Shown here one piece after another: positions 24,934 to 41,050 of a stretch of 64,000 bases of DNA. Under the pieces are notes generated by a model. That model was given only the letters and a program-made list of their open reading frames with translations, was not told the DNA's origin and did no database searches. Source of the DNA: an uncultured Fodinibius sp. Its GTDB lineage: Bacteria; Bacteroidota; Rhodothermia; Balneolales; Balneolaceae. Each line of letters begins with the position of its first letter. Within the stretch, counting starts at the first letter, position 1. A program made the translations under genes and the position numbers. The stretch is from assembly GCA_913056455.1 (NCBI GenBank), contig CAJXMJ010000001.1:558001-622000 (forward strand). Direction: 5' to 3'.

Positions 24934-25028
24934 CTATACCATAACGGTAAGGTGGCATGAGTTTATGTTAAATTGATAAATAATAATTGGGAAGCAAAAA
25001 AGCCAAAAGGCAACAGGTGTTAGCCTAC
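24934..25028 (-). repeat. attC-like site K
   Basis: The left core CTATACCATAAC and the right core GTTAGCCTAC bracket a 95-base element whose interior (24966-25015) is closely similar to that of site C at 33615-33672. Both share TTGATAAATAAT and AAAAAGC blocks. It lies downstream of the leftward thioredoxin-like gene, as expected for that cassette's attC. Confidence 0.65.
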
Positions 25029-25183
25029 AGATTGGATATTGATAGTTGGAGCCAAACTTCAGTGGCACTTTTACTCCATTGTCATGAAGAACCACAGGCT
25101 GATTTTCCAGTCCATAGTTCAAACAAATAGTCCCGAGTTATTATAGAGCATACAAACAATACAACGGTCTCAATAAATATCAA

Positions 25184-26320: not shown

Positions 26321-26445
26321 GATGTAATAATTATTTTAAGTTGAATATTGATGTAGACGGCTATAGTGAAATGTTTCCTGTCTTAGGGCGTCGTCAGAGT
26401 CGAGGAAACATATTGTGGTTTGTATGACTACTGCTAAGGTTACAT

Positions 26446-27066: not shown

Positions 27067-27341
27067 AAGTATCAAAGAAAATTTAAATTTTGGAGGGATA
27101 TGTATAAATGCAACTAATATACTTCATATTTGTCACTAATTTTCTAACTCACAAACAACCTTTCAGATGGGTTGCGTTCAGACGAACGTTAATTGCCAAG
27201 ATGTAATTCAGAAATTGGAAACAAGCGTTTATCCTTTGAAGCTTCAGCAAAGAGAGAGGCGACCCTCGGGAGACTTCTGAACACACGGGTAATACTACCC
27301 AGATTGCATCATCCAACTGCCGTATTTTATACAATAATTTG

Positions 27342-27686
27342 TTATATCATACAGTCGATCCAATCGAGTGCCATGTGGATAAGTAGTCCAAGACCTGCCA
27401 AGTGTAGTACACGAGCGGAGGAATGGAAACCCTGCCTCTCAGCTTTTCGTCCAAAAACAAGAGGAAGAGCAAATATCAATACATAGATTATGATGGCTGG
27501 TGCAGTGTGCAACGGATGGAAACCAATGGAGCATCGACTGGGATCGTATATAGGGTCGGCCAGCAAGTGATCTAGATCAACAAGCAATGTCGCAACCATG
27601 ATCACCGTCGCGTTTTGCCATCGGCTATGATAAAAAGCGAACGCAACAATCAGGGGAACGATGAAATGCAGAACGATATGAATCAT
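27342..27686 (-). CDS. DUF6122 family small membrane protein
   Basis: This 114-residue protein has three or four hydrophobic helices and conserved-looking histidine and aspartate pairs (LLVDLDHLLADPIYDP, GFHPLHTAPA, HMALDWIDC). The pattern matches the DUF6122 family and distantly the DUF457/YdjM-like metal-dependent hydrolases. It occupies one slot of the leftward array between attC-like elements. Confidence 0.75.
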   Translation of the reverse strand: MIHIVLHFIVPLIVAFAFYHSRWQNATVIMVATLLVDLDHLLADPIYDPSRCSIGFHPLHTAPAIIIYVLIFALPLVFGRKAERQGFHSSARVLHLAGLGLLIHMALDWIDCMI

Positions 27687-27696
27687 CTTTTAGGAA

Positions 27697-27850
27697 TTGT
27701 TATCGAGTGAAGCGATATAAGGACTGGCGCTTATGCGGAAGGTGTCCAGATGTTGAATTTATTTAAAACGAAACATTAATTAATAAGTGAAAGGAAGGCA
27801 AGGAGAGGGTGAGATCTATTCTACTTGATGCCGGAATATGCACATATTGA
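27697..27850 (-). repeat. attC-like site I (degenerate)
   Basis: The left side (GCGATATAAGGACTGGCGCTT) aligns with the TAAC-N5-TGCGCATAAG half of better sites. The interior 27774-27813 matches site C2 at 34020-34060 almost base for base (shared TGAAAGGRAGGCAAGGAGA). The right core is not recognisable. It lies downstream of the leftward glyoxalase-like gene. Confidence 0.5.
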
Positions 27851-27859
27851 GATGAATGT

Positions 27860-28249
27860 TTAATGATCAGTCACAAGCATCCATTGAATATCAAACTTGT
27901 CTTTTACCATCCCAAAATCTTTTTCGAGAGGGAAGAGTATTTTGCCGGATTCTGATAGCTTTTTGAAAACTTCTTCTCTAAATGTTTTGTCTGTAAAAGT
28001 AACGAAAAGAGAAATATTGTTTCCAATGGTAACGGAATGGTTCGGTAAATCATCAGATGCTTTAATTCGAATTTTTTCAGCATGTAGTTCTGAATCGAAA
28101 ATTCGATTTTGATAGTCATTTGGCACCTCGATTGGTGAGTCACTAAAAGTCTTCATGGAGATGATTTCTCCATTCAGGACTTGAGCGTAAAATTTCATTG
28201 CCTCTTTGCATGTGCCCGGAAAAACAAGATAAGGTATTATTCCTGTCAT
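27860..28249 (-). CDS. VOC/PhnB-like glyoxalase-fold protein
   Basis: This 129-residue protein matches the PhnB/DUF1338-free VOC layout: IIPYLVFPGTCKEAMKFYAQVLNGE at the start, MKTFSDSPIEVP, and a C-terminal FGMVKDKFDIQWMLV. I choose ATG 28249 (MTGIIPYL) since family members begin there; the longer frame to 28318 adds 23 unlike residues. The substrate is unknown. It is a cassette-sized single gene in the array. Confidence 0.85.
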   Translation of the reverse strand: MTGIIPYLVFPGTCKEAMKFYAQVLNGEIISMKTFSDSPIEVPNDYQNRIFDSELHAEKIRIKASDDLPNHSVTIGNNISLFVTFTDKTFREEVFKKLSESGKILFPLEKDFGMVKDKFDIQWMLVTDH

Positions 28250-28431
28250 AGTTATACATTTTTGATTTAGATAATAATATAAAGATATAACTTTAATCCG
28301 GGTTTTTGATATTCGCAATCAGGGCAACTGATTATTGATGTTTGGGTTATTCCATTATATAAATTGCCTAACCTTGGTAATTCAAATTAAAATTTTCAGA
28401 GTTTTTTATTGGCAATCCAACTAAGTGCAAA

Positions 28432-28562
28432 GACCGATAACAATCCTGCGCATAAGTTGGATGCGAAGGTATGTTGAATTATTACTAATGATTGGAGAGG
28501 GAATAAGCCAAAAAGAGGCAAGGCCTGGAGAGCGACTGCATAAATCCGTTAGACCTATAGCT
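28432..28562 (-). repeat. attC-like site H
   Basis: The left half GATAAC-AATCC-TGCGCATAAG has the same spacing as the best site near attI. The right core is GTTAGACCTATAGC. The interior carries ATGTTGAATTATT and AAGAGGCAAGG, shared with sites I and C. Its right core overlaps the stop codon of the leftward alpha/beta hydrolase gene. The start of that gene's slot (GTTAGGCTTCT) agrees with this core at 8 of 11 bases, as the cassette rule predicts. Confidence 0.7.
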
Positions 28563-29415
28563 TATAATTTACTAGAAAAGACATTACGTTTTTATTGTAT
28601 GCTTCAGTATTGTCTTCATGCATGATATGCGAAGCATTTGGAATTTGAACCCGCTTGGTATGGGGTAGCAGTTCTTTAAGCCTATGCGATAGTTGATGAA
28701 AAACATTAGGACTTTTCTCCCCATTAACCAGTAATGTAGGAATTTCTATCTCACGTAATTCTTCAGGTCTCAGTGGGGCAAAGCCCGAACCGAGCAATTC
28801 TGCCTTTATTGTATTGACGCGTACTTGTTCACGACGTGATTCGGATAGTTGATTATAGAATTCCTCACCAAGTATTGCACGCCCCATCAGTCGCGAAACT
28901 TCTTCAATGTCATCTCTTTTTGCAGCTTTTTTGGCAGGCTCTATGCCTTTCATTCCAAGTTTAAGTATTGCTATAGCAGTCAGCGGCCGTTTTAGAAATA
29001 AGGTAAGTAATTCGAGTGGCTTCGGAGTGTTACTAACAAACAACGTAATGACCGGGGGTTCCGCTAAAACCATGGTTTGAATCAGACTTGGATTCTTAAT
29101 CGCTAGTAATAAACAAAGAAAAGCCCCATAAGAGTGACCTATCAAGTGGGCTGGTACTGCGTCCAGTTTTTGAAGCAGGATTTCTAAATCATTCACATGT
29201 TCGCTCATCCTGTAGTCAGCACCTTCCGGAATTTTTTCATTGGGCCAGTGGTAGCGGCGGCTGTAAGTTATCGTACGGAAGTGATTGCTAAAATCATTGA
29301 TCTGATCTTGCCACGTTCGATAATCACTGGTCGAACCATGGACAAGTACCACCGGTTCGCCATTTCCGTATTCTGAGTATTCAAAAGAGGTGTTATTTAT
29401 ACGAATACTAGTCAT
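28555..29415 (-). CDS. Alpha/beta hydrolase
   Basis: This 286-residue soluble hydrolase has an oxyanion-hole segment VVLVHGSTSDYRTW, the nucleophile elbow IGHSYGAFL (Ser), a helical cap, and a late catalytic Asp/His region (LLVNGEKSP; NASHIMHED). The closest look is epoxide hydrolase or haloperoxidase-type esterases; the substrate is unknown. It fills the whole slot between attC-like sites G and H and ends inside the core of site H. Confidence 0.88.
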   Translation of the reverse strand: MTSIRINNTSFEYSEYGNGEPVVLVHGSTSDYRTWQDQINDFSNHFRTITYSRRYHWPNEKIPEGADYRMSEHVNDLEILLQKLDAVPAHLIGHSYGAFLCLLLAIKNPSLIQTMVLAEPPVITLFVSNTPKPLELLTLFLKRPLTAIAILKLGMKGIEPAKKAAKRDDIEEVSRLMGRAILGEEFYNQLSESRREQVRVNTIKAELLGSGFAPLRPEELREIEIPTLLVNGEKSPNVFHQLSHRLKELLPHTKRVQIPNASHIMHEDNTEAYNKNVMSFLVNYKL

Positions 29416-29457
29416 AAGGAATTAGTATCAATATAAGCTAAAACAAATCATAAGCAA

Positions 29458-29562
29458 GAAGCCTAACGCCCAGGCGATAATCTAAAGGTGCAGAAAGTTG
29501 ATTTAGCTTAACAAAAAGGAGGTAAGCAGGGATAGCCAAAGTCTGTGCGGGCTAAGTTATTA
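29458..29562 (-). repeat. attC-like site G
   Basis: A left core GCCTAAC (29461-29467) is followed by GCCCAGGCGATAATC, and the right side is CTGTGCGGGCTAAGTTAT. The interior shares GTTGATTTA and a GGAGGTAAGC block with the other sites. The right core is altered (GCTAAG in place of GTTAG). It lies downstream of the leftward glycine-zipper gene. Confidence 0.6.
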
Positions 29563-29649
29563 AGCGTTTTTATTAAGGAAAGAAGTTCTAATGGTTAGTA
29601 TAAACGGTGTGAAAATATGATTTATACACTGTTAACAGCTTCCTTAACA

Positions 29650-29826
29650 TTAGTTCTCATCGCCATTCTCATTTTCTTGTTCTTGACTTATAGTTATACC
29701 AATTCCAGCACCCAACGCTATTCCTAAACTAATCCATAAAGCTAAATTATCTGTCAGAACGCCAATAACTGCTCCAATTGCAGCACCGAATGCTGCTCCT
29801 AAACCTATATTTTTTTCGTTGTTCAT
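29650..29826 (-). CDS. Small glycine-zipper membrane protein
   Basis: This 58-residue protein starts MNNEKNIGLGAAFGAAIG and has two glycine-zipper helices and an acidic tail (EQENENGDEN). I prefer ATG 29826; the longer frame from 29862 adds 12 polar residues. Glycine-zipper peptides of this size are often membrane-active. It lies at the attC side of a group with an XRE regulator and a membrane protein. Confidence 0.6.
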   Translation of the reverse strand: MNNEKNIGLGAAFGAAIGAVIGVLTDNLALWISLGIALGAGIGITISQEQENENGDEN

Positions 29827-29933
29827 AATTTTATAATCAGAATTACCGGTTGCATAACACAAACTCTAGCATGTTATGTCTATTTTTACTTCTGTTGGTT
29901 CTTTAAAACTTGTTTGATTTTTAGTCTAGTCAG

Positions 29934-30128
29934 TTATTCCTCATCGTCAAAAATTTCTTCGATCTGCTTATCAAAAAGTCTCGCAATGCTAAATGCCAAG
30001 GGGAGACTTGGATCATACTTCCCGTTTTCAATTGCATTGACGGTCTGCCGTGATACATCTAATGCCTTGGCCAGATCAGCCTGGGTCCAGTCACGTTCAG
30101 CCCGAAGTACTTTTAGTCGGTTTTTCAT
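29934..30128 (-). CDS. XRE family helix-turn-helix regulator
   Basis: This 64-residue HTH_3 protein starts MKNRLKVLRAERDWTQADLAKAL, then DVSRQTVNAIENGKYDPSL, with tail LFDKQIEEIFDDEE. It is the small YgzD/Cro-like type typical of two-gene units with a DUF2178-like membrane protein. Its start overlaps the stop of the upstream gene by 4 bases, so translation is coupled. Confidence 0.9.
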   Translation of the reverse strand: MKNRLKVLRAERDWTQADLAKALDVSRQTVNAIENGKYDPSLPLAFSIARLFDKQIEEIFDDEE

Positions 30129-30544
30129 TTGTATCGTCTTAGGTTTATTAGCAGAGAAACTAAATAGGAGAGCCCGATTAACACGATGACTCCAGCAATT
30201 TCCGCATCAAAAGGGATCACATTTGTAGCGTCTAACATTGAATAGCTAATGCCACCCACCACGGCCAAGCCCAATGAAATGCCCATCGACTCTAAGTGAA
30301 CTTTTTGCAGCATCTCATCCAGTTCCCTCAAATGTTTGATGTTCGCTATGATCATACCGATACCAATACCGAAATTCAGAAGTATGACAAGTGTGTTTAT
30401 CAGATTATTTGATCCCCAGAACAACTCATGTCCGAAGGCTGCCAGGGCAACCGATAAAACCCAGAGCAAGGTCCAAATTGCAAGGGAGACCGTTTTCTTC
30501 TTGGTCTTCTTCTCCTTATCACTTGATTGTCCTTTGTTATCCAT
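30125..30544 (-). CDS. Four-helix membrane protein paired with the XRE regulator
   Basis: This 139-residue protein has a highly charged N-terminus (KEKKTKKK) and four membrane helices at about 22-41, 47-68, 88-106 and 110-132. It is usually annotated as a hypothetical or DUF2178-like partner of a small Cro-like regulator. The stop overlaps the regulator start. The function is unknown; the pair may sense membrane state. Confidence 0.75.
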   Translation of the reverse strand: MDNKGQSSDKEKKTKKKTVSLAIWTLLWVLSVALAAFGHELFWGSNNLINTLVILLNFGIGIGMIIANIKHLRELDEMLQKVHLESMGISLGLAVVGGISYSMLDATNVIPFDAEIAGVIVLIGLSYLVSLLINLRRYK

Positions 30545-30879
30545 TTGTAATCTTTATCTATTTTATGTTAAGGAAACTTTACATATAGTATTGCTTATTT
30601 TAATTAATGTCAACTTAGCTTTACAACTTAATTAAGAGATCAATCTGTTACAGGGGGGGGGAACGAGCTATTTAGAAGGGCAGTTGAGAATTTTTTTAAT
30701 GTGAAAATCTGTATGAGAAAAAGCTTAAACCCATTAGTGAAGTGAAATGGACTGTGGTTTTAAAAGAGCATCCACCCCGCTACCTTGTAGTGCAAATAAC
30801 TGCATTACAGGGGGATACCAGCAGAATGGATGGTATTTAGAACCTAATAAAGCTCTCAAATGGAAAGTGTATATACTTT
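30545..30879. other. Gene-free stretch with inverted repeats
   Basis: No credible gene was found. It contains a run of nine G near 30652-30660. It also has a near-perfect palindrome, about 12 bp per arm, at 30792-30820 (CTTGTAGTGCA with TGCATTACAGG), and a small symmetric element GAAAGTGTATATACTTTC near 30860. Its position suggests the remains of a cassette boundary, but no attC core is clear. Confidence 0.4.
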
Positions 30880-31161
30880 CTATAAGGTAAATTCCTTCAA
30901 AGTATGAAGTGATTTAACATCTAGTCCATCTTCTTTCATGGCTTGCTTGGCTTCATCCGATGCCATAAAAGTTTGAAACTTATCCATATCTGGTATATCC
31001 AGGATCAGACCTGTTGTGTTAGGATTCTGTTCATCTCTAAAGGTACGTGCCTTGACACCTATTTTGGCAAACATCTCATGTCGGCTACCCGGTGATTTTT
31101 TCCATGCTTTTGCCCAATGATTTCCATCTTTTACATCGTGATAAACAATTACTGTTGCCAT
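30880..31161 (-). CDS. Small dimeric alpha-beta barrel-like protein
   Basis: This 93-residue protein starts MATVIVYHDVKDGNHW and contains GLILDIPDMDKFQTFMASDEAKQAM. This is the layout of small ferredoxin-like (antibiotic monooxygenase/EthD-type) domains in which a loop precedes a strand with a conserved aspartate. No cofactor residues are obvious. It is a cassette-sized single gene. Confidence 0.65.
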   Translation of the reverse strand: MATVIVYHDVKDGNHWAKAWKKSPGSRHEMFAKIGVKARTFRDEQNPNTTGLILDIPDMDKFQTFMASDEAKQAMKEDGLDVKSLHTLKEFTL

Positions 31162-31573
31162 AAATACCTCACCAATTGATTGTTTTTGATATGAAGAAAG
31201 CCAAAGCTTTCTTTTAACGTATATTAAATAAAAATAACTATTTGGGGGTCAACTTCCTACTATAAGAAACTCTTAAACGGCCTAAGGATTGCAAAAATGG
31301 TGGGCCTATTACGCTCTGGCGTATAAGCGGCCCTTTTGGAATTCAACAAAGTCGGCTACGCAGTGGCATTCCATGGCCCCTTAATGTGCAGGTTAGGTGA
31401 CCAGACTTTTGGAAGTGGAAGTAGAAATTTTTGATTCCTGAAATTATACACAGTCGTTCATTAATTCCCATTATATGTTTAATAACAAGTATATATAGGA
31501 CAATTTAATATCAAAATGGTAAGTTTGTAATAGAAATGAGAATCAGTCAATAGTAAAATAAATAGTTGATATT
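31162..31573. other. Gene-free stretch with attC-like site E and the ferritin promoter region
   Basis: Apart from site E (31301-31402) there is an AT-rich region at 31430-31573 upstream of the ferritin gene. No iron-box-like operator is clear. Confidence 0.5.
31301..31402 (-). repeat. attC-like site E
   Basis: The left half TATTAC-GCTCT-GGCGTATAAG and the right half CTTAATGTGCAGGTTAGGTGACC match the core layout of the site next to attI. The interior shares TGGAAT...GCAGYGGCATTCCA with site D at 32212-32316, so E and D are sister sites. It is followed to the right by the rightward ferritin gene. Confidence 0.75.
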
Positions 31574-32101
31574 ATGATTAAGCAGAATATAGAAGAAGAA
31601 ATAAACAATCAGATTCAGGAAGAATTTCAGTCCGCATATGCTTATTTGGCAATGTCGGCATGGTTTGAAGAGAAAAACCTTAGTGGCTTTGCAAGCTGGC
31701 TTAAAGCCCAGTGGCAAGAGGAAATTGAACATGCCATGAAGTTTTACAATCACCTGATTCAAAGAGACGGGCGGCCAATATTGCAAGATATTGAAAAACC
31801 AAAAGTGCAATTTGATTCTCCCCGGAAAGCGTTCAAACTGGCTCTTGAACAGGAGCAGCATATTACGAAACGTATTCACAAGTTGTATAAGCTGGCCAGG
31901 GAGGAAGACGATTATCCGCTCGAAAGTTTATTACTTTGGTTTATTGATGAACAGGTAGAGGAAGAAGAGATGGTGCAAGATGTTATTGATAAACTAAAAT
32001 TAGTCGGAGAAGACGGTTCTGGACTGTACTTACTGGATCGCGAGATGGGCGAAAGACAAGGTCAGGATGGTAACGAAGCAGAACAAAGTGAAGACCAATA
32101 A
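31574..32101 (+). CDS. ftnA: Ferritin (non-heme)
   Basis: This 175-residue ferritin-like four-helix protein stores iron in the cytoplasm. Ferroxidase-centre residues are visible in INNQIQEEFQSAYAYLAM (Glu), WQEEIEHAMKFY (Glu and His) and WFIDEQVEEEEM (Glu and Gln). Length matches bacterial FtnA. It is the only clear rightward gene lying between two attC-like sites (E on its left, D on its right), opposite to the array direction. It has its own terminator. Confidence 0.93.
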   Translation: MIKQNIEEEINNQIQEEFQSAYAYLAMSAWFEEKNLSGFASWLKAQWQEEIEHAMKFYNHLIQRDGRPILQDIEKPKVQFDSPRKAFKLALEQEQHITKRIHKLYKLAREEDDYPLESLLLWFIDEQVEEEEMVQDVIDKLKLVGEDGSGLYLLDREMGERQGQDGNEAEQSEDQ

Positions 32102-32132
32102 TAGCGTCAATATTATAAGATATTCGTAAATG

Positions 32133-32163
32133 AAATCCCCCCCCCAAATTAGGGGGGATTTAT
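32133..32163 (+). terminator. Rho-independent terminator of the ferritin gene
   Basis: A perfect 10-bp stem AAATCCCCCC (32133-32142) pairs with GGGGGGATTT (32152-32161), 32 bases past the stop codon. A TTTATATAA tract begins at the 3' arm. Confidence 0.8.
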
Positions 32164-32211
32164 ATAATGCAGTCAAAAAAATTGCATTGCTGGCTGATAT
32201 GCCGAGAAATA

Positions 32212-32316
32212 GGACAAACGACGTTGCGCATAACGGGCCAGTGGAATCTCCCGATATCTCGGGAGGTCACGCAGCGGCATTCCACAGGATCCGACTTACT
32301 GCGCGGGATATATGGC
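32212..32316 (-). repeat. attC-like site D
   Basis: The left half CAAAC-GACGT-TGCGCATAAC and the right half CTTACTGCGCGGGATATATGGC align with the attI-proximal site. The interior is a long nested palindrome (CTCCCGA with TCGGGAG inside GTGGAAT with ATTCCAC). The right core GATATATGGC agrees at 8 of 10 bases with the start of the alcohol dehydrogenase slot (GTTACATGGC), as the cassette rule predicts. Confidence 0.75.
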
Positions 32317-32352
32317 GATTAGAACATAAGGGTGGATATAAACCCTGATTTA

Positions 32353-33327
32353 TTATTTTTCAGTTTCAACTACAATCTTTCCCAAATGCTTGCCCTCACC
32401 GAAATATTGAAGTAAGGCAGGGATTTTATCAAAATCGTAGGGACCATCAATAACGGGTTTGATTTGTCCCTTTTCTACAAGTTTAGATATCTGGTCTAAA
32501 CCTTTATTTGGTTCATGAAAGAGTACACTTAGCTTTTTGCTGGTAAAAAGTGATATGAGTGAGCCAATCAGTGCTATTTCGAGCAGCCTGAACATCGATC
32601 CACCGATGGTAATATACGTGCCGTTTTTTTTGAGGGCTCGTGCATATTTAAATACGGATCTGTTTGATTTTGCATCGAGGATGAGATCATATTTTTCTCC
32701 GGTAGCGGTAAAGTCCGTTTTTTTATAATCAATCACACTGTCAAAGCCTAGCGATTTCATTAAATCAAGCTTTTCGGCACTGTCAACCCCGGTTACCTTT
32801 TTAGGCTTGTATGATTCCAGGATTTGGATCCCAAGGGTCCCGACCCCGCCTCCGGCACCATTGATGAGAATACTCTGCCCGGATTTCACCTTTCCCTTTT
32901 GCACAAGTCCCTGGAGAGCAAGTATTCCTGCATGGGGCAGGGCAGAGGCATCATTGTGACTTATATTCATCGGTTTTTTTGAGAGTATTTTTTCCGGAAC
33001 GCAGACGTATTCGGCAAATCCGCCAAATCCGCATTCCGATAGATCACAATATATCTCATCACCGATGTTAAAGGAAGTCACCTTATCGCCCACTGCTTCG
33101 ACTTTCCCGGAAATATCTATCCCGGGAATAGCTATTTTTGGCTTTTTTAGACCGGAAAACAAACGGATCACAAATGGTTTACCCCTTAATAACCCCCAGT
33201 CCGAATCATTGATGGATGCTGCATGAACTTTTACCAGCACTTCATCGTCGTTTGGTAACGGTTTTGGAACTTCCCCGCTTTCGAGAGTATTCGGCAATCC
33301 ATATTCCTCTAATAGTATCGCTTTCAT
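32353..33327 (-). CDS. NAD(P)-dependent alcohol dehydrogenase, zinc-free MDR/quinone oxidoreductase type
   Basis: This protein of about 324 residues in the medium-chain dehydrogenase family begins MKAILLEEYGLP, with the Rossmann motif INGAGGGVGTLGIQI and the family signature PGIDISGKVEAVGDKV. Structural zinc cysteines are absent, so it belongs with quinone oxidoreductase-like members. I place the start at 33327 where homologues begin; upstream in-frame ATGs at 33357 and 33366 are possible. It fills one cassette slot between attC-like sites C and D. Confidence 0.88.
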   Translation of the reverse strand: MKAILLEEYGLPNTLESGEVPKPLPNDDEVLVKVHAASINDSDWGLLRGKPFVIRLFSGLKKPKIAIPGIDISGKVEAVGDKVTSFNIGDEIYCDLSECGFGGFAEYVCVPEKILSKKPMNISHNDASALPHAGILALQGLVQKGKVKSGQSILINGAGGGVGTLGIQILESYKPKKVTGVDSAEKLDLMKSLGFDSVIDYKKTDFTATGEKYDLILDAKSNRSVFKYARALKKNGTYITIGGSMFRLLEIALIGSLISLFTSKKLSVLFHEPNKGLDQISKLVEKGQIKPVIDGPYDFDKIPALLQYFGEGKHLGKIVVETEK

Positions 33328-33578
33328 GAGATTTTTAAATTGGTCATGATTACTCATAACATTCACATAACACCAATGTTATTTATTCTCTCCTTACTTC
33401 CTAAATCAGTTTTATCCAGGTTTTTACTAAAAGTATGAAGGCAATATGAACAAAGCCGATTTAATATCAAATTACTACCGCCGTCTTACGATTAAATACT
33501 ATTGAGATTGCAAGCTTATTTTTTGCTAGCTTTAAGACAGAGAATAGGAATAGAACTACTGTATGGTAGTAAGCTCAA

Positions 33579-33710
33579 GCCATGTAACGACACTGCACAT
33601 AACCGGTGCACAGATGAATGTTGAGTTGATAAATAATGAACGAGGAGCTAAAAAGCTAAAAGCTGGCAAGACCAAGGGAGGCGTTTCCGATTAATTAGCG
33701 GGTAAGGTGT
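33579..33710 (-). repeat. attC-like site C
   Basis: The left half is GTAAC-GACAC-TGCACATAAC. The right half is CCGATTAATTAGCGGGTAAGG. The interior shares long blocks with site K (TTGATAAATAAT, AAAAAGC). It lies directly downstream of the frameshifted leftward gene at 33738-33954. Confidence 0.7.
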
Positions 33711-33737
33711 AATTGTAAAGGTGAGAAGTTTAGTTGA

Positions 33738-33954
33738 TTATTGACTCTTATATTTTTGCAGCCATGTAACTTCAAAATAGCTTAAACCAAATTTCCAGTA
33801 TAAGAACGAAAAAACAATTAACATACTCCCAAAAGTAGATCCAAGCCCGTATTCACCTTGGATAAAAAAGTTGCTCAAGCAGTAAAGGAGCAATGATAAA
33901 ATTAAAAACGATGATGATGTTTAGAACTTTTAATGCTTTTTCTCCTGATTTCAT
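33738..33954 (-). pseudogene. Frameshifted small membrane protein cassette gene
   Basis: From ATG 33954 the frame reads MKSGEKALKVLNIIIVF then FIIAPLLLEQL, and stops early. Removing one base from the run of six A (33864-33869 on the + strand) continues it as FIQGEYGLGSTFG, a second hydrophobic helix and the end LQKYKSQ at 33738, giving about 71 residues with two helices. It is either a decayed gene or a sequencing error in the homopolymer. It is followed at once by attC-like site C. Confidence 0.65.
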
Positions 33955-33962
33955 ACTGATTA

Positions 33963-34085
33963 GAGATTAAATTGTGCTTAATGGAGATTCGTTATGGTGT
34001 TAAAATTGATTTAAATGAAATGTTAACTAATAAATGAAAGGGAGGCAAGGAGATGACGAGGCCTTTTCGTGTTATACTGTTAATT
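33963..34085 (-). repeat. attC-like remnant C2
   Basis: The left side ATTAAATTGTGCTTAATGG resembles the TGCGCATAAG half. The interior 34020-34060 is nearly the same as in site I (AACTAATAAATGAAAGG, GGCAAGGAGA). The right core is lost. It lies between the cupin gene and the frameshifted gene, where a cassette boundary is expected. Confidence 0.45.
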
Positions 34086-34188
34086 CAATATTTGAGAGGG
34101 TATCATACAAAAACAATTTCTCCCTCAAGAAACTGCAATAATAACTGTCCTTGCTCATTATTTAGGAAAAGTTCAATCAGCATCGAGA

Positions 34189-34575
34189 TTAACTCTTTGT
34201 TTTCTCAACCATGTGGTTTATGACATGGGTGTGTTCCTGTTCAGGACTAAACATAATAATCTCTGCGTCTTTATTAACCTTAACATTATGTCCGGCAGGC
34301 CAGTAAAAAAGATCATTTGTATTAACGGTCTCCTGTATACCATCGGCGTCTGTTGTGGTAAGCTGCCCACCTAAGACAAAACCCCAATGGGGACACTGAC
34401 ATAAATCACCTTCCAATCCCTCGAAAAGGGGAGTTGTATCAACACCTTTTGAGAGGCTAAAATATTCACCACTGATCTTGCCCAATCCAGTGACGTCGCC
34501 GAAATCCGTTTGCTGGCGTATGGTGGCTCCTGGTATTTCCATCTTAACGGTTACATCATTTTTGGATATTCTCAT
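34189..34575 (-). CDS. Cupin-like protein
   Basis: This 128-residue soluble protein is all beta, with cupin-like segments (CQCPHWGFVLGGQLTT; DLFYWPAGHNVKV; EQEHTHVINHM). Histidines are present in the two motif regions, so a metal site is possible. No named function is recognised. It is a leftward single gene in the array. Confidence 0.7.
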   Translation of the reverse strand: MRISKNDVTVKMEIPGATIRQQTDFGDVTGLGKISGEYFSLSKGVDTTPLFEGLEGDLCQCPHWGFVLGGQLTTTDADGIQETVNTNDLFYWPAGHNVKVNKDAEIIMFSPEQEHTHVINHMVEKTKS

Positions 34576-35021
34576 AATTACTCTCCTTATAGGTATGTAG
34601 ATGCTATAATATGAATAATATATTTATTACAGCATCTTATTAATCAATAGGTACTAAATGATACCGATGAAATAGTATGTTACGACATCAACTCTTGGTA
34701 TCCTACACTTATTTAATTTTCACCCAATACATGCAGGATCAGATCTTATTTTTGAAACCTTTTCGAGGGAAGCAGTATAACGGTCGCGGAGCTTACCAAC
34801 TTAAGTACAACACAGAATATGGACAGCAAAAGATGGGATAGGTTGGGGGTGGATGAATTTATTTCCTTGCTTAACAAATTCGCTTTCTCTATAAGTACGG
34901 CGAATGATCGATAAAAACAGTAGGGTATCAACAAAGAATAGTGTATATATAAGTAACTGGCATTTTATCTATTTAGGATCAAAAGAGCACAAGAGTAGAT
35001 AGCATCTCAAAAATTACTACA
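34576..35021. promoter_or_regulatory. Divergent intergenic region, cupin gene and AraC-type regulator
   Basis: 446 bases without a supported gene separate the leftward cupin-like gene from the rightward regulator. Both promoters must lie here. A 62-residue minus-strand frame at 34746-34934 has no homology or start site and is not called. No attC core was found. Confidence 0.5.
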
Positions 35022-36125
35022 ATGCCACTTTACATGGATATTCATTTTGTTGACCAAGTATCTGTAGAGGATACACGAGAAGCCCATCTCAAGGATTTGG
35101 CCGTACAGGAGAAGTATGGAGTCAAATATCATCAATACTGGTTTAATGAAGAAGCCGGAACCGTATTTTGCCTGATGGAGGGCCCAGACAAAGAATCCTG
35201 TGCAGCCACACACAGAGAAGCCAATGGTGTTGCAGCTTGCCAGATTACAGAAGTGGAAGGTGGGTTGTACGATCTTTTTATGGGAGAAAATCAAAAAGTA
35301 GATCACGGACTGGTTCGGCAAGAAAATGGACAGATCGATACGGGGCATCGCTATATCCTGACCCTCGATATTATTGCTAAAACCATCAGCAGGAAATCCA
35401 TCAATTTCAACCAGCTAAAACTGCCTGAAAAATCCAAAAATATCGCTCTCCAATGTATTGCTGAGTACAATGGAAAAGAAGTTCGAACAAGTGGCTTCGA
35501 TAGTATCGTTGCTGTGTTCAAAACTCCTGAAAAAGTGCTTCGATGTGCTCACGAAATACAAAAAGAATTACTGGAGGGCCACAGAAATTCTGAACCGGAT
35601 TCAGTTGATATCATATTCAATATGGGGATTAGTGTGGGCCAGCCCTTAACAGAGAAGGAGGGATTCTTTGTAGAGGCCATACGGATGAGCAAACGTTTAT
35701 GTTTAATTGCAGGAGAGAATGAAATTATCACATCAACACTTTTTGAAGAACTCTGCGATGTGAATAAATTGATTAAAAACCATATAAGCTTTCGAACCAT
35801 CAAGCCTGCGGAACAGCAATTTTTAGACAACCTGCTAGACATTGTTGAGAACAGGATTTCTTATCATGACTTTGGTGTTGATTTCCTGAGCCGCGATATG
35901 GGCATCAGTCGCCCACAACTCTACAGGAAAATTACTGCTCTTACCAGCCGATCTCCGGTTACATTCATTCGAGATATTCGCTTAACCAAAGCTCTTTCAC
36001 TCATTAAAGAAAACAAATACAATCTCTCTGAGATAGCCTTGGAAATCGGATACCACAGCCCCTCTTATTTCTCCAAATGCTTCCATGATAAATTTGGCGT
36101 CAAAGCATCAAGCATATCCGTTTAA
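35022..36125 (+). CDS. Three-domain regulator: DUF4242, cyclase-like, AraC HTH
   Basis: This 367-residue protein has three parts. Residues 1-90 (MPLYMDIHFVDQVSVED to GGLYDLFMG) match DUF4242, a small ferredoxin-like domain. Residues about 105-245 resemble a class III nucleotidyl cyclase fold (SGFDSIVAVFKTPEKVLRCA; FNMGISVGQPLTEKEGFFVEAI), but the metal-binding aspartates of active cyclases are not obvious. Residues about 275-367 are an AraC DNA-binding domain (DMGISRPQLYRKI; IALEIGYHSPSYFSKCF). The first two parts probably sense a signal. It likely controls the next two rightward genes. Confidence 0.85.
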   Translation: MPLYMDIHFVDQVSVEDTREAHLKDLAVQEKYGVKYHQYWFNEEAGTVFCLMEGPDKESCAATHREANGVAACQITEVEGGLYDLFMGENQKVDHGLVRQENGQIDTGHRYILTLDIIAKTISRKSINFNQLKLPEKSKNIALQCIAEYNGKEVRTSGFDSIVAVFKTPEKVLRCAHEIQKELLEGHRNSEPDSVDIIFNMGISVGQPLTEKEGFFVEAIRMSKRLCLIAGENEIITSTLFEELCDVNKLIKNHISFRTIKPAEQQFLDNLLDIVENRISYHDFGVDFLSRDMGISRPQLYRKITALTSRSPVTFIRDIRLTKALSLIKENKYNLSEIALEIGYHSPSYFSKCFHDKFGVKASSISV

Positions 36126-36305
36126 CATTTTAACATTACTCGATCTTTCCTGTCTTCCAGCGGACGATGAATCAAAATTTACATTCATTGATTGAAATGT
36201 GATGGAATAATGCCTTTCACCTCAGATATATTGATTCATGATAACGCAACATTAAACCAGCAATGGTGGAATTTGCATATAACCAACACATAAAATCATA
36301 CAATC

Positions 36306-36815
36306 ATGAACACATCAAAAAACCTATTATTCATTGTAGCACTCTTTTATTTTATCGCTGGATGTGATGTAAATGCAGCGGATAACAAATGTAATGACCA
36401 GCCCGTCAATCTCCTAACAGAACAATTCCAGGAATCCCAGGCTGAAATACAAATCGTGTTAGACGGCATATTTACAAGCATTCAGGAAAAGGATGCCGAT
36501 AAACTTATCTCCTATCACGCCTATGTGGAAAAGTTCACGGAATTCAGAGATAGCGAGCCGCGATTTAATTCCCAAGAGAATGAAGCGTATGAACGAGGAT
36601 TCGTGGGAGCTATCTCCGGCTTTGACTATAATCTCGGGGATCTGAAAATAGCTGTTTACGGCGACGTAGCAGTGGTCACCTTCCATGCGGATTTTCGACC
36701 GACCATCGGTGAAGATGTTATGCAGATATGGGGATCTACAACACTGGTGTTTGTCAAAACCGTCAATGGATGGAAAATTACCCATGAACACCATTCGCCA
36801 CTGAATGTAGGATAA
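36306..36815 (+). CDS. SnoaL/DUF4440-like lipoprotein
   Basis: This 169-residue protein has a lipobox (FIAGC at about residues 17-21) and a nuclear-transport-factor-2 fold: a helical start IQIVLDGIFTSIQEKDADKLISYH, then AVVTFHADFRP and the closing strands TTLVFVKTVNGWKITHEHHS. Proteins of this type bind or isomerise small molecules; the ligand is unknown. It lies between the AraC-type regulator and the FAD oxidase on the same strand. Confidence 0.82.
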   Translation: MNTSKNLLFIVALFYFIAGCDVNAADNKCNDQPVNLLTEQFQESQAEIQIVLDGIFTSIQEKDADKLISYHAYVEKFTEFRDSEPRFNSQENEAYERGFVGAISGFDYNLGDLKIAVYGDVAVVTFHADFRPTIGEDVMQIWGSTTLVFVKTVNGWKITHEHHSPLNVG

Positions 36816-37034
36816 AACATGGATTGCCATTAGAGGATCATCAAGCGTTCCCGCTGTTTTGGCTGGATCCTTGATGCGTCCTTATTAATTAAAACCCGTC
36901 CATGAATCAAAATTGATATTTATTTATAGAATTCTCAGGATCAAAAGGCTTATTTTTAGAAAAGCTCTACCAATCACATTCTATCTCTTACAGGATTAGA
37001 ATACCATCAAACAACCTCTGTTTACGGGATTAAT

Positions 37035-38411
37035 ATGGAACAACTAACAGCGATCAGAGACTTACAAGAAAAACTGAAAATTCAAGTTATCCTGCCCCAG
37101 GATGATACTTATGACAAGGAGCGTTCGATCTACAATGCGATGATTGACAAGCGGCCTGCCATGATTGTAAAATGTAAAAACAAAAAAGATGTTCAGGCAG
37201 CCGTACTATTTGCCCGAAAAGAAGGGATTGAAGTATCTGTTCGGGGTGGCGGTCACAATGGGCCCGGGCTTGCATTGGTTGACGAGGGGATGGTCATCGA
37301 TTTGTCCCTGATGAAGGACATTCAAATTGATCCGAATAAACAAACGGCCGTTCTTGAGGCAGGCTGCCTACTGAAAGAAGTGGATAAAGCTACTCACGAG
37401 CATGGTCTGGCACTTCCAAGCGGTATCATCGGTACGACGGGCGTCGGCGGCCTCACACTGGGGGGTGGTATAGGATATCTCAGTCGGAAAGCCGGTTTGA
37501 CGATTGATCACCTGCGAGAAGCAGAGATTGTACTGGCTTCGGGAGAAGTGGTAACGGCTAATGAAACCAGTCACCCGGACTTGTTTTGGGCGATTCGCGG
37601 GGGTGGCGGTAATTTTGGCATTGTAACTTCTTTTACATTCAATCTTTCACCTATTAAAAATGTCTATGCCGGGCCGATGTTCTGGCCCATCGAGCAGGCC
37701 CATGAAGCAATGACCTTTTATGATGAATTTACTAAAAATGCTTCGAATGACCTTTACGGGTTTTTTGCCTTTCTGATTGTCCCTCCCGGCGATCCGTTTC
37801 CCGAACATTTACATTCGAAAAATGTTTGCGGAGTGGTTTGGTGTTATACCGGCCCGATGGAAAAAGCGGAAGAGGTGTTTAAGCCGATCCGGCAATTTGG
37901 TCCGCCCATACTTGATTTTGTTAGCGAAATTCCGATGCCGGCTCTGAACGGAATGTTCGACGAACTCTACCCGCCCGGAATGCAGTGGTACTGGAGAGCT
38001 CATTTTATCAAAGAACTGACTGATGATGCGATTCGTGAAAATATTAAACATGGTTCCAAGATCCCTTCGATGCACTCAACTACACACCTATATCCAATCG
38101 ATGGCACTGTCCACGATGTAAAATCGGAAGACACCGCTTGGGCAAAACGGGATGTACGCTGGTCTCAAGTTATTGTTGGCGTAGATCCGGACTCCGAAAA
38201 TGCGGATAAAGTTACCAAGTGGTGCAAGGACTATTACGATGGATTGATACCGCATGCCGAGGAAGGAGCATACGTCAACTTTATGATGGAAGAGGGAGAA
38301 TCACGAATCAAAGCTTCCTATGGCGACAATTACAAACGGCTGGCTGAAATCAAAGCCAAATATGATCCGGATAACTTTTTCCATGTAAATCAAAACATCA
38401 AGCCAATTTGA
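37035..38411 (+). CDS. FAD-linked oxidoreductase, berberine-bridge type
   Basis: This 458-residue enzyme has the FAD_binding_4 domain (residues about 35-210) with VRGGGHNGPG, whose histidine is the usual covalent FAD attachment site, and GTTGVGGLTLGGGIGYLSR. The cysteine used for the second covalent link in bicovalent members is replaced by isoleucine (SGIIGTTG), so attachment is probably single. The C-terminal BBE motif is YDPDNFFHVNQNIKP. It oxidises an unknown alcohol or sugar-like substrate. It lacks a signal peptide. Confidence 0.92.
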   Translation: MEQLTAIRDLQEKLKIQVILPQDDTYDKERSIYNAMIDKRPAMIVKCKNKKDVQAAVLFARKEGIEVSVRGGGHNGPGLALVDEGMVIDLSLMKDIQIDPNKQTAVLEAGCLLKEVDKATHEHGLALPSGIIGTTGVGGLTLGGGIGYLSRKAGLTIDHLREAEIVLASGEVVTANETSHPDLFWAIRGGGGNFGIVTSFTFNLSPIKNVYAGPMFWPIEQAHEAMTFYDEFTKNASNDLYGFFAFLIVPPGDPFPEHLHSKNVCGVVWCYTGPMEKAEEVFKPIRQFGPPILDFVSEIPMPALNGMFDELYPPGMQWYWRAHFIKELTDDAIRENIKHGSKIPSMHSTTHLYPIDGTVHDVKSEDTAWAKRDVRWSQVIVGVDPDSENADKVTKWCKDYYDGLIPHAEEGAYVNFMMEEGESRIKASYGDNYKRLAEIKAKYDPDNFFHVNQNIKPI

Positions 38412-38445
38412 TGAATATGTGATGGAAGGAGTAAAAAAAGTTGTA

Positions 38446-38556
38446 GACGTGGTCTTACCTTTTATGCGAGAATTTATTTAGTACATACCACACTTGATGG
38501 TTTTATTGCACATCTCAACAGGTAGGGAAGTCTAATAAATGCGCGGGTTAGGGTGC
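38446..38556 (-). repeat. attC-like site B, attC of the second cassette
   Basis: The right half ATAAATGCGCGGGTTAGGGTGC (38535-38556) is an excellent core pair. Its outer core GTTAGGGTGC is exactly the complement-matched start of the same cassette at site A (39364-39373). The left half (TTACCTTTTATGCGAG) is degenerate, so the far side may be damaged. Confidence 0.75.
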
Positions 38557-38561
38557 TGTGG

Positions 38562-39341
38562 TTAATAATGTTTTAATTTAGCTTTATCATTTGGCATTGA
38601 GTGACCGATCATATCAAGAATTATTTTGTAGGATTTCATTGCTTCAAATTCATCATCTATAGAATTCATTAGTCTCAATAAACCAAGATAAGCGCTACTT
38701 TCTTTTCCCAATGTCATTTTTTCTTTGGGATCATTATTCTGTTTCAGAATAATATTAAACTCATGCTTTTTAAGTTTAAATTTGATCGAAAGTACTTTCG
38801 TGAAGCTAGTTCCTTTTTTATGATTGTCTTTATCACTGATAAAAAAATCAGTTTCTGGAAATAAAACTTTATGGCTAATTGCTTTAATAAATAATTCTGC
38901 AATATCTGCAGCATTTTCGACTTCTTCATTTGGTGGTTTTCTATATTCATGTTCCAGTTTATTACGAAGAGTTCTAGTTTGTGAGACTAATAAACTGGGA
39001 GCCAGATTTAGAGCCTGAATTAGTTTTAATTTCCAGGTTAACTCTTCTTCAATATCAAAATAGTTTAAAAAATTAGTTAGGCACTGAATTTCATCTTTAT
39101 CATGAACACCGAATCTTGATAAAGCCTCATCGACTTGACAGTCAATTGCTCTTTTTGAATTGGTTAAACTGTTAATTAGGCCTTTGTTAGTTTGATTTGC
39201 TAAATCTTCTTTTGCGAACCGTAAGAAATCTTTTGGTTTGAAATCAAATTCGTCATAATGACCGCCCATGCTAGCATCAGCAACCAAAATGGCATTGGTT
39301 AAGTCTAACTTTGATTTGTTTAAGATTTCTAAAAAAGTCAT
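38562..39341 (-). CDS. Cassette 2 protein with HEPN-like RX4H motif, function unknown
   Basis: This 259-residue soluble, mostly helical protein is not a recognised family. Within it, TLRNKLEHEYRKPPNEEVENA carries an R-x4-H motif (RNKLEH) in an all-helical setting, as in HEPN ribonuclease or nucleic-acid-binding domains. This is a pattern-based inference only. It fills the second cassette of the integron, from 39372 down to site B, and reads in the usual cassette direction. Such proteins are common in integron arrays and in defence contexts. Confidence 0.6.
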   Translation of the reverse strand: MTFLEILNKSKLDLTNAILVADASMGGHYDEFDFKPKDFLRFAKEDLANQTNKGLINSLTNSKRAIDCQVDEALSRFGVHDKDEIQCLTNFLNYFDIEEELTWKLKLIQALNLAPSLLVSQTRTLRNKLEHEYRKPPNEEVENAADIAELFIKAISHKVLFPETDFFISDKDNHKKGTSFTKVLSIKFKLKKHEFNIILKQNNDPKEKMTLGKESSAYLGLLRLMNSIDDEFEAMKSYKIILDMIGHSMPNDKAKLKHY

Positions 39342-39363
39342 TAATGCTGGATTATATTACTAA

Positions 39364-39500
39364 GCACCCTAACGACATTGCGCATAAGGGGCGTGCAAAG
39401 TCGCGCTGAAATTATTTTAAAATGTACTACGGAAACTGACCAAATCGAAACCGGCAGCCGGTGGCGAGGCACGTCCCACTTAATGCGCGGGTTAGAGCAC
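39364..39500 (-). repeat. attC site A of the first cassette
   Basis: This is a 137-base imperfect palindrome with paired cores: GCACCCTAAC-GACAT-TGCGCATAAGG on the left and CCACTTAATGCGCGGGTTAGAGCAC on the right. The inner boxes (TGCGCATAAG with CTTAATGCGC) and outer cores show the attC layout. The right core GTTAGAGCAC equals the start of the first cassette at 39868-39877. Confidence 0.9.
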
Positions 39501-39512
39501 TGTTAGTTTTTG

Positions 39513-39848
39513 TTAAGTTTCATTTCCTTGCTTAATCATTTGCACAGGGGGGATAAGCGGAACGCTAAATTGTATACGACTTACATTGCTACTTTTAGTT
39601 ATATCTTGACCATCTGCACCTAATTTAAGACCAACTACTTTTATTCCACCGCCCGCTGAAACAGAAGCTTCTTCAGTTGTAGTTACAGCAATATCAAATT
39701 TGACTTCTTGGACGAGTTCTTCTAAATCTTTTTCTCCTCCAAATGATGGATTAATGGCACCATTGTCATCTGAAGTTTTTTTGATAGCAGAATCCACACC
39801 TTTTTGAATTTCAGAAAGTGTCTCAGAAATAAACTTTTCTAATTCCAT
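39513..39848 (-). CDS. Cassette 1 protein, trypsin-co-occurring-domain-like (trypco2)
   Basis: This 111-residue protein has a helical start (KFISETLSEIQKGVDSAIKK) and a beta sandwich: VKFDIAVTTTEEASVSAGGGIKV, then GLKLGADGQ and RIQFSVPLIPP. This is the look of the trypco2 / CU044_2847 domain linked to predicted conflict systems. The match is from memory of the family pattern. The gene fills the first cassette next to attI, so it would be the cassette expressed most strongly. Confidence 0.7.
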   Translation of the reverse strand: MELEKFISETLSEIQKGVDSAIKKTSDDNGAINPSFGGEKDLEELVQEVKFDIAVTTTEEASVSAGGGIKVVGLKLGADGQDITKSSNVSRIQFSVPLIPPVQMIKQGNET

Positions 39849-39867
39849 AACTTAATTTTTGATTGAA

Positions 39868-39900
39868 GTGCTCTAACCTAGTCTTATACATATCATTCAA
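39868..39900 (-). other. attI / first-cassette junction
   Basis: GTGCTCTAAC (39868-39877), read on the minus strand as G^TTAGAGCAC, is identical to the outer core of attC A. This marks the recombination point between 39877 and 39876, 213 bases upstream of intI. The extent of attI beyond this core cannot be set from one example. Confidence 0.8.
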
Positions 39901-40090
39901 ATACTATCTATTGTATGCATAATATGCAAAAAAGCGGATAAGGTAATTTAAGGGATGGTTTTAGCAATATTATGTGTATCAATAGGGGTAGGGCGAATAC
40001 ACATAACATGTATGCATAATATATATTATTTGTAAGGTTTTGGGTGTTAGTTGGTCTTACTTATAAACGGTTCATCAGAGATAGAAAGAA
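39901..40090. promoter_or_regulatory. intI upstream region with repeats
   Basis: A 14-base direct repeat TGTATGCATAATAT occurs at 39912-39925 and 40009-40022. A perfect 10-base inverted repeat TTATGTGTAT / ATACACATAA lies at 39970-39979 and 39997-40006. The region must hold the intI promoter and, on the minus strand, the cassette promoter. The repeats are candidate operators or integrase accessory sites. Confidence 0.6.
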
Positions 40091-41050
40091 ATGAGTAAGA
40101 GCAAGCTGTTAACAAAAGTAAGAGAGGAAATCCGGAGAAGAAATTATAGCTATCGCACTGAGAAGTCCTATCTGCGATGGATTATTCGGTTTATAAAATT
40201 TCATGGACGTAGAAATCCCCTTAAGATGGAAAAGGAGGAGGTCGTGGAGTTTTTAAATTGGATGGCAAATGAACGTGATGTGGCGGCATCTACACAAAAT
40301 CAGGCCCTGTGTGCAATTGTTTTTCTGTACAAACAGGTGCTTGACAAACCTTTGGGAGCATTTGATAATTTGCAGCGGGCAAAGGAGCCGAAGCGTTTGC
40401 CGGTGGTGTTGTCTTCCAAAGAGGCCCGGCGAATTTTGGCTAATATGGAGGGCGATACACGTTTGATGGTTCAATTGTTATACGGCAGTGGCTTGCGTCA
40501 GTCGGAGTGTCTGCGGCTTAGGGTTAAGGATATCGATTTTGAATTTAATCAGATCTGGGTGCGCAATGGCAAGGGGAAGAAGGATCGGACGACAGTGTTA
40601 CCGGAGATCAGCAAAGAGAAGCTCAAAAATCAGATTAAGAGAGTAAAGCTACTGCATCAAAAAGATCTGGATAAGGGATTTGGGAAAGTGGTTTTACCCA
40701 AAGCCCTGTCAAAAAAATATCCTTCCATGGCTAAAGAGTTCGGATGGCAATATCTGTTCCCGTCCGCCCGGCGTGCCAGGGATCCGCGATCGGGACTAAC
40801 CCAGCGGTACCATAAATCTTCTTCCTATCTGCATAAGGCTATTAAAACAGCCGTACGTCAAACAAACATTGTTAAAAAAGTGAGCAGCCATACTTTTCGG
40901 CATTCGTTTGCAACACATCTATTGCAGGATGGGTACGATATTCGGACGGTACAGGAACTGTTGGGACATAAAAATGTAAGTACGACCATGATTTACACGC
41001 ACGTCCTTAAAAAAGGGGGACGTGGAGTGAAGAGTCCTATTGATAATTAA
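40091..41050 (+). CDS. intI: Integron integrase IntI
   Basis: This 319-residue tyrosine recombinase has catalytic residues R136, H267, R270, H293 and Y302, each ten less than in class 1 IntI. The IntI-specific additional domain is present at about residues 200-225 (VVLPKALSKKYPSMAKEFGWQ then YLFPS). The end reads THVLKKGGRGVKSPID, as in chromosomal IntI proteins. It folds back single-stranded attC sites and joins cassettes at attI. It reads away from the cassette array, the usual integron layout. It appears intact. Confidence 0.96.
   Translation: MSKSKLLTKVREEIRRRNYSYRTEKSYLRWIIRFIKFHGRRNPLKMEKEEVVEFLNWMANERDVAASTQNQALCAIVFLYKQVLDKPLGAFDNLQRAKEPKRLPVVLSSKEARRILANMEGDTRLMVQLLYGSGLRQSECLRLRVKDIDFEFNQIWVRNGKGKKDRTTVLPEISKEKLKNQIKRVKLLHQKDLDKGFGKVVLPKALSKKYPSMAKEFGWQYLFPSARRARDPRSGLTQRYHKSSSYLHKAIKTAVRQTNIVKKVSSHTFRHSFATHLLQDGYDIRTVQELLGHKNVSTTMIYTHVLKKGGRGVKSPIDN

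Follow-up and report, generated by a model that had tools for sequence, protein, structure and literature searches.

What kind of integron lies beside bioB in this member of the Balneolaceae, and which programme switches its integrase gene on? The question is raised by a 64,000-nt stretch of DNA (positions 558,001 to 622,000 of contig CAJXMJ010000001.1, assembly GCA_913056455.1), here called the window, from an uncultured Fodinibius sp., a salt-loving bacterium, in which a preliminary description had read an integrase gene (intI), an attI junction and a leftward cassette array. Our analysis indicates that the locus is a chromosomal integron whose array is largely eroded behind the first cassette and whose intI likely belongs to a competence-like regulon of an extracytoplasmic function (ECF) sigma factor. 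With moderate confidence, we further propose that intI of the Balneolaceae is a direct member of an ECF-run natural-competence regulon, with gene capture timed to DNA import and not only to damage. The anatomy is that of known integrons; what seems new is the apparent wiring of intI to a DNA-uptake regulon.

The integrase gene, attI and the attC model

The open reading frame (ORF) at 40091..41050 on the plus strand encodes an intact protein of 319 aa, which matches the NCBIfam model TIGR02249 with 442.6 bits (cut-off 265), whereas all Xer models stay under their cut-offs. Its best match in the PDB is 2a3v (IntI4 of V. cholerae, 7.5e-87). The residues R136, H267, R270, H293 and Y302 align with R146, H277, R280, H303 and Y312 of IntI1, in agreement with the offset of ten from class 1 IntI proposed earlier, and this catalytic set together with the IntI-specific region marks the protein as an IntI-type tyrosine recombinase. 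An IntI phylogeny had been suggested as a check, with clustering among Xer or phage proteins as the adverse outcome. A quick maximum-likelihood phylogeny of 87 proteins, with support given by the Shimodaira-Hasegawa-like approximate likelihood-ratio test (SH-aLRT), instead groups the integrase with IntI and separates it, with a support of 100, from two Xer-like recombinases that this genome encodes. The integrase forms a starred set of four with the integrases of G014, G019 and G015 (support 99), and this quartet falls inside the 36 IntI of the family (support 91, not starred), one long-branched family protein (L153) being placed apart. The closest named relative is that of Aliifodinibius (now Fodinibius) salipaludis, which is 92% identical and is also encoded beside bioB. 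A phage or Xer-type integrase that happens to lie beside unrelated palindromes would belong to the same superfamily, but the TIGR02249 score, the subthreshold Xer models, the split in the tree and the attC model matches described below make this explanation highly improbable.

To describe the attC sites we relied on a covariance model, R1, which comprises 21 pairs and was trained on 27 attC taken from relatives, with zero window sequence. Among these 27 sequences 94.4% of the cells are paired, and the covariation score reaches 0.230 versus 0.099 after shuffling (0 of 500 shuffles as high); neither the pairs with double changes nor the pair types rose above shuffles in the same set. R1 was run on the whole window with filters off, and E <0.05 was taken as a match. 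The run returned 18 matches up to E 10, eight of them at E <0.05 (109.5, 74.7, 36.3, 30.9, 24.8, 23.5, 19.8 and 15.7 bits), and all eight are minus-strand sites in the interval 24959 to 39497, which corresponds to the 25 to 40 kb region where the preliminary description expected attC sites. One of the eight is intact, and the other seven are eroded or partial, having lost stem pairs or parts. The remaining ten matches (E 0.19 to 7.7) fall within the array as well as beyond it and on either strand, and were treated as noise. Two short attC motifs occur at 4 and 6 places in the window, counts that none of 100 shuffles reached; of the six places, one (49656) is outside the array. A scan of the window at Rfam gathering thresholds gave no match.

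The attI region, recognised from a second genomic copy, the junction and 10-nt pairing, covers 134 nt at 39873..40006 on the minus strand. Its insertion point, G^TTAGAGCAC at 39877/39876, coincides with the junction named in the preliminary description: GTTAGAGCAC at 39877 pairs 10/10 with R'' of the first attC (3 of 300 shuffles equally good), and the region is conserved in the second copy. An attI with a junction of the G^TTRRRY type beside intI, as predicted here, is one defining feature of an integron. Another, foldable attC with R''/R' and L''/L' arms that end cassettes, is represented by the first cassette. This cassette lies at 39373..39876 on the minus strand, its ends pair 10/10, and its attC (39367..39497, minus strand) is intact, with 109.5 bits and an E of 2e-31 against R1. 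It carries an ORF at 39513-39848 (111 aa) with a subthreshold likeness to Pfam PF19631 (Trypco2; E 9e-4, 19.9 bits, cut-off 24.2). A similar rule holds in relatives, where the cassette ends at 45 consecutive attC pairs pair on average at 8.42 of 10 positions versus 6.07 after partner shuffling (1000 shuffles, maximum 6.67; the pairs were listed by script and include some false ones and one repeated). At the level of sequence, these results confirm a chromosomal integron beside bioB in a Fodinibius-like member of the Balneolaceae. Because the catalytic residues are conserved and the attC stems covary, IntI is predicted to be active at attI and, as is usual in integrons, would insert cassettes there through recombination of attC in its folded single-stranded form. 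By eye, a TTTG...TATTTG stretch near attI is a candidate for the cassette promoter Pc.

The element upstream of intI and the genes behind it

A comparison of intI upstream regions yielded one common element, TGTAAGG-N16-GTCTTAC. In the window its sole exact match lies at 40031..40060 on the plus strand, 30 nt before the ATG of intI, a position that is promoter-like. The whole genome holds 16 sites (11 exact and 5 with one mismatch) versus 4 for a reversed control pattern, and each of the 12 genomes of the genus has 10-31 sites versus 0-4 for the control. We scanned the upstream regions of intI with up to two mismatches and a spacing of 16 only. The element was present at 33 of 36 family loci (12 exact), which come from 33 of the 50 genomes with TIGR02249 over cut-off. 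By contrast, none of 69 loci not labelled Balneolales had it; the best of these showed 3 mismatches (one locus) and the others 4-7. These 69 are what is left of L042-L118 once four loci with a Balneolales label and four whose upstream sequence was too short are set aside. Among five Balneolales-labelled loci (L041, L045, L049, L057 and L092), three pass, one fails with 5 mismatches and one is too short. Upstream of the other tyrosine recombinases of the same genome, six of ten being testable, the best fits had 4-6 mismatches; two of the six gave identical values and may be copies.

Nine of the 16 sites precede genes of DNA uptake or DNA processing, namely those for intI, an intI fragment, RecN, ComM/YifB, RadC, SSB, ComEC, a ComEA-like protein and RecA, and one precedes an anti-sigma-like gene. 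HHH_3 and TIGR00360 matches among them pass their cut-offs. We then fetched element sites of three relatives: 18 of 19 in G009 and 12 of 13 exact ones in G002 (another genus), the remainder being the genomes' own intI, and 8 of 14 in G015. Recurring genes were evident, with ComM behind the element in G009, G015 and G002, RadC in G009 and G002, SSB, RecN and the ComEA-like protein in G009 and G015, and RecA in G009. G009 also has HU-like proteins behind the element, G002 a GIY-YIG protein, and many other sites in the three genomes precede genes of no clear role. Most of these genes were named by eye from likeness; one HU-like protein and the GIY-YIG protein were tested.

Some smaller observations concern individual copies of the element. 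In G002 (L213, L221 and L222) it also stands, by eye, before small proteins resembling transposases associated with repetitive extragenic palindromes, and the small protein of L221 has no Pfam match. At L183 and L188 a similar stretch, ATAAGCCGTTGAA...AGAGAG, occurs just downstream of the element in both copies. The copy beside lexA is followed, by eye, by a terminator-like hairpin, and a small RNA downstream of this copy is therefore possible.

The candidate regulator and rival readings of the element

One of the element sites immediately follows the stop codon of a gene for a 181-aa ECF sigma factor (C2:579470-580012) and precedes a gene for a tetratricopeptide repeat (TPR) protein. The sigma protein matches TIGR02937 with 57 bits (cut-off 42.9). 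With up to two mismatches allowed, the element is found at most 10 nt from the sigma stop codon in 28 of 30 family loci, the exceptions being G030 and G069; the 30 loci are best matches with at least 40% identity, and some match exists in 84 of 89 genomes. In G002, G003, G004, G007 and G035, a distance of 5.9-7.0 kb separates the sigma gene from intI. An element common to the sigma/anti-sigma locus and to the targets, at a fixed spacing, is the pattern of an ECF regulon, and its position next to the sigma gene is the layout expected of an autoregulated ECF sigma promoter. The evidence thus points to one predicted sigma factor that reads the element. Since the element is common to intI, to DNA-uptake genes and to the ECF sigma locus, we infer that intI sits in a competence-like regulon. 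The ECF sigma factor would switch on the DNA-uptake (competence) programme, of which intI would be one gene, and IntI would be made as imported single-stranded DNA, the form in which attC serves as substrate, enters the cell.

The shape of the element bears on who reads it. Its two boxes are partly inverted repeats of each other, and a dyad of this type (GTAAG...CTTAC) could be the site of a dimeric transcription factor and not a sigma promoter. We consider this improbable. In an alignment of 42 sites of the genus (TTGTAAGGATT-N12-GGTCTTACT) conservation of the two boxes reflects how the sites were selected; in the columns that played no part in this, it is asymmetric, with 1.05-1.30 bits for ATT after the left box, 1.59 for G before the right box and 0.91 for T after it. 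Flanking conservation differs between the two sides as in a -35/-10 pair. In addition, at the sigma loci a spacing of 16 outscored 15 and 17 (with a half-point penalty in favour of 16), the ATG frequently lies at a distance of 28-40 nt, and the element is next to an ECF gene. Within genus g3 the right-hand box begins with C, not G, at 9 of 9 intI and 2 of 2 sigma loci seen, and a right-hand box starting with C also occurs outside g3 (L145 and L151).

A more conventional explanation is an ordinary eroding integron under SOS (LexA) control, the element being a general or DNA-damage promoter with no tie to competence. Two papers present control by the SOS response, acting through LexA, as the norm and the conserved mode for integrases (PMC3108266, PMC8946536); further inputs named there and in a third are CRP, the stringent response, RpoS (indirectly) and nucleoid proteins (PMC3108266, PMC8876359, PMC8946536). 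A 2022 review calls SOS-dependent integrase expression highly conserved and associates the few exceptions with integrons that are disrupted (PMC8946536). For V. cholerae, competence-driven DNA entry is reported to raise IntIA via SOS (PMC8946536, PMC8876359). In line with such control, the DNA-damage genes recA and recN are among those with the element, which also has a copy beside lexA. We nevertheless regard the SOS explanation as unlikely, because ComEC, the ComEA-like protein, ComM, RadC and SSB are among the element's genes and because the copy adjoining lexA faces away from it. Moreover, the LexA consensus of the Balneolaeota given in PMC7739468 has no clear fit at intI, lexA or recA and may not be the box of this genus: we counted 5 mismatches at L130 (3 of 60 shuffles equally good), 6 at lexA (8 of 60) and 8 at recA (58 of 60). 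As a separate observation, the region upstream of recA in all 12 genus genomes (L166-L177) contains, by eye, a palindrome like TGACACTATGTTGTCA with small variations, which may be the SOS box of this genus, unlike the printed consensus.

Several results weigh against an ECF-run competence regulon containing intI. Exact copies of the element exist in just 37 of 244 genomes of the class, and the family intI loci L122, L133 and L154 exceed the limit of two mismatches. At six of the 16 sites of the genome, the gene that follows has no clear role or is not convincing as a gene. These are a lipoprotein (by eye), ORFs of 51 aa and 206 aa (the latter 316 nt away), a Big_5-domain protein, a member of the 23S_rRNA_IVP family and, beside lexA, no convincing gene. 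Scores for the ComEA-like protein, RecN and ComEC fall under the cut-offs of TIGR01259, TIGR00634 and TIGR00361, RecN and ComEC having been scanned as fragments. The Pfam sigma-70 regions of the ECF protein are likewise under cut-off, and the anti-sigma label of the TPR protein is one weak match (E 8.8e-5, far under cut-off). A second ECF gene, 38% identical, lies at C4:119504-120043, which leaves two candidate sigma factors for the element. Finally, LexA may also act on intI, whose promoter in the window comes to 5 mismatches from the LexA consensus, with 7 of 60 shuffles equally good.

If the proposed ECF-run regulon is real, it would be a second, independent solution for integron control, and it would qualify the view of SOS-dependent integrase expression as highly conserved that is expressed in PMC8946536. 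It would also link gene capture directly to transformation, hint at how integrons persist outside the Proteobacteria, and make the ECF sigma factor a concrete candidate for the control of natural competence in Balneolaceae. In the Firmicutes, competence regulons such as those of SigH and ComX/SigX have one alternative sigma factor driving the DNA-uptake genes. By analogy, a single alternative sigma factor is proposed here for DNA-uptake genes; unlike SigH and ComX/SigX, it would be of the ECF type with an anti-sigma-like partner, with an integron integrase among the targets. The V. cholerae superintegron (VchIntIA with its V. cholerae repeats, VCR) is likewise chromosomal and supplies the nearest solved integrase, 2a3v, whereas here the intI promoter carries the element of DNA-uptake genes and the array of the window is short and mostly eroded.

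By titles and abstract openings, we found no report of an ECF or competence sigma promoter for intI in the open-licence literature. In the passages covered of one Balneola paper, integrons appear only by citation, and the string 'balneol' has 0 occurrences in the text of IntegronFinder 2.0. Integrons of Salinibacter and of the Bacteroidetes/Chlorobi group are already in print (PMC9024848, PMC2426708), and integrase regulation is not treated in the consulted parts of these papers. Across the window's class, 105 of 244 genomes exceed the TIGR02249 cut-off; the figure for the family is 50 of 92.

The eroded array and other integron pieces

How much of the array survives? The second cassette (38537..39372, minus strand) is genuine, since both its ends pair 10/10: GTTAGGGTGC at 39373 with GCACCCTAAC at 38556, with 0 of 300 shuffles equally good. 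Its ORF at 38562-39341 (259 aa) has no match in Pfam, PADLOC or NCBIfam, and bears an RxxxxH motif as in HEPN proteins. Among 72,556 plasmid records the cassette has 4 weak relatives. Its attC (38537..38556, minus strand) is truncated to R'' and the first bases of L'', CTAACCCGCGCATT, a motif match with 1 mismatch, and breaks off into unrelated sequence after about 20 nt.

The break adjoins a block of three plus-strand genes at 35022-38411, AraC-like and SnoaL-like (by eye) plus a flavin adenine dinucleotide (FAD) oxidase, which interrupts the array. No R1 match at E <0.05 falls between about 35.0 and 38.4 kb, and this block probably came by a route other than cassette capture.

Beyond it, all on the minus strand, lie the seven eroded or partial sites. 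The first, 33964..34086 (30.9 bits, E 3e-7), stands behind the ORF 34189-34575, and 62 nt of it are 88.7% identical to part of the array of G009 (L120). For this ORF, GTTATACTGC at 34781 and ACAGTATAAC at 34080, paired at 9 of 10 positions, are a candidate pairing found by eye. The second site, 33582..33708 (74.7 bits, E 1e-20), has mutated stem bases, and the third is at 32214..32313 (23.5 bits, E 7e-5). Between these two is a zinc-type alcohol dehydrogenase-like gene (32353..33366, minus strand; PF13602 and PF08240), probably a fossil cassette. Its R'', GCCATATATC, pairs with GTTACATGGC at 8 of 10 positions (15 of 300 shuffles equally good); the latter 10-mer occurs at R' of the preceding attC (33588) and again at 33770. 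A further site is at 31304..31398 (15.7 bits, E 0.016).

A further case is the ferritin-like gene (PF00210) at 31574-32101, which runs opposite to the array. It belongs to a cassette part at 31392..32163 (plus strand) with 84.6% DNA identity over 787 nt to L139 7565-8345 of G037, a genome of another genus, where the gene sits in an array and the cassette ends GTTAGGTGGC...GCCACCTAAC pair. The IntI of the two genomes are only 57.7% identical. On this comparison, the fossil cassettes of the window are judged to be real cassettes. Farther out are sites at 28435..28560 (24.8 bits, E 3e-5) and 27715..27841 (36.3 bits, E 8e-9), and the recognisable array ends with a central-part remnant at 24959..25024 (19.8 bits, E 9e-4; model positions 33-98, no stem covered). 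Partner searches for the eroded sites stayed mostly at chance level, with equally good shuffles in 82 of 300 for the relic at 34086, 300 for 33708, 103 for 31398, 23 for 28560 and 122 for 27841.

Leftward single-gene units ending in attC, as described before, fit cassettes 1 and 2, but the array as a whole is not an unbroken series of such units: a single attC is intact, that of cassette 2 is truncated and the rest are eroded. In the same way, the integron said to explain about 15 kb is real and mostly fossil, and the 35.0-38.4 kb block has no attC match. With at most nine recognisable attC (8 R1 matches plus the truncated one), the array is smaller than a superintegron, or large sedentary integron, of 20 or more cassettes. 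We also asked whether attC sites become strictly more eroded the farther they lie from attI and did not adopt this view, because the bit scores drop overall but not monotonically. In G009, at the same bioB site, a score of 103.9 bits (L262 3042-3171) is reached about 33 kb from intI.

Erosion on this scale raises the possibility of a dead integron, in which intI is intact, the array is past recombining and most attC have decayed. One intact attC among eight matches, the truncated second attC and a second intI cut to 117 aa would fit such a state, which we judge rather unlikely given the intact reading frame and catalytic residues of IntI, the clean first cassette and attI, and high-scoring attC elsewhere in the genome (up to 121.9 bits). 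Relatives argue the same way: the bioB-site array of G009 (L262 and L120) is long, with 38 R1 matches over about 33 kb, 30 of them >90 bits (two of the 38 are halves of one site split at the L262/L120 border).

The preliminary description had also recommended looking for the integron beside bioB in related genomes. We indeed found intI there in 4 of 12 genus genomes, namely the window genome, G014, G009 and G016 (a shortened copy). Five more genomes have bioB and the intI found at separate places, and three have no BioB match passing E 1e-60. Between the window genome and G009, BioB is 94% identical and IntI 59%, which suggests that the integron platform has been exchanged at a fixed bioB site. 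In the family as a whole, R1 matches occur in 50 of 88 genomes (stricter filters, 39 candidates scored per genome; the per-genome counts are lower bounds).

Within the window's own genome, 150 of 1020 candidates were scored with R1 and yielded 25 matches with E no higher than 1, with clusters at C6:85.5-88.1 kb (3), C2:616.6-618.5 kb (4), C1:980.6-987.6 kb (6) and C1:295.8-296.7 kb (2). Such clusters resemble CALIN, that is, attC clusters without an integrase, whereas the window locus has both integrase and attI. The C2 cluster has an attI copy and no intI: the second attI, 134 nt and 89.6% identical, lies at C2:620.7 kb (L270:732-865), with no IntI match in the 6 kb of L270 around it. This would be an integrase-less integron that could be served only in trans. 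The second attI borders a minus-strand ORF at 899-1903 (334 aa, purM-like by eye), and on its array side are four attC matches (L264). The second intI, at C1:999 kb (L181 / L266:9188-9469), still has an exact copy of the promoter element 30 nt upstream.

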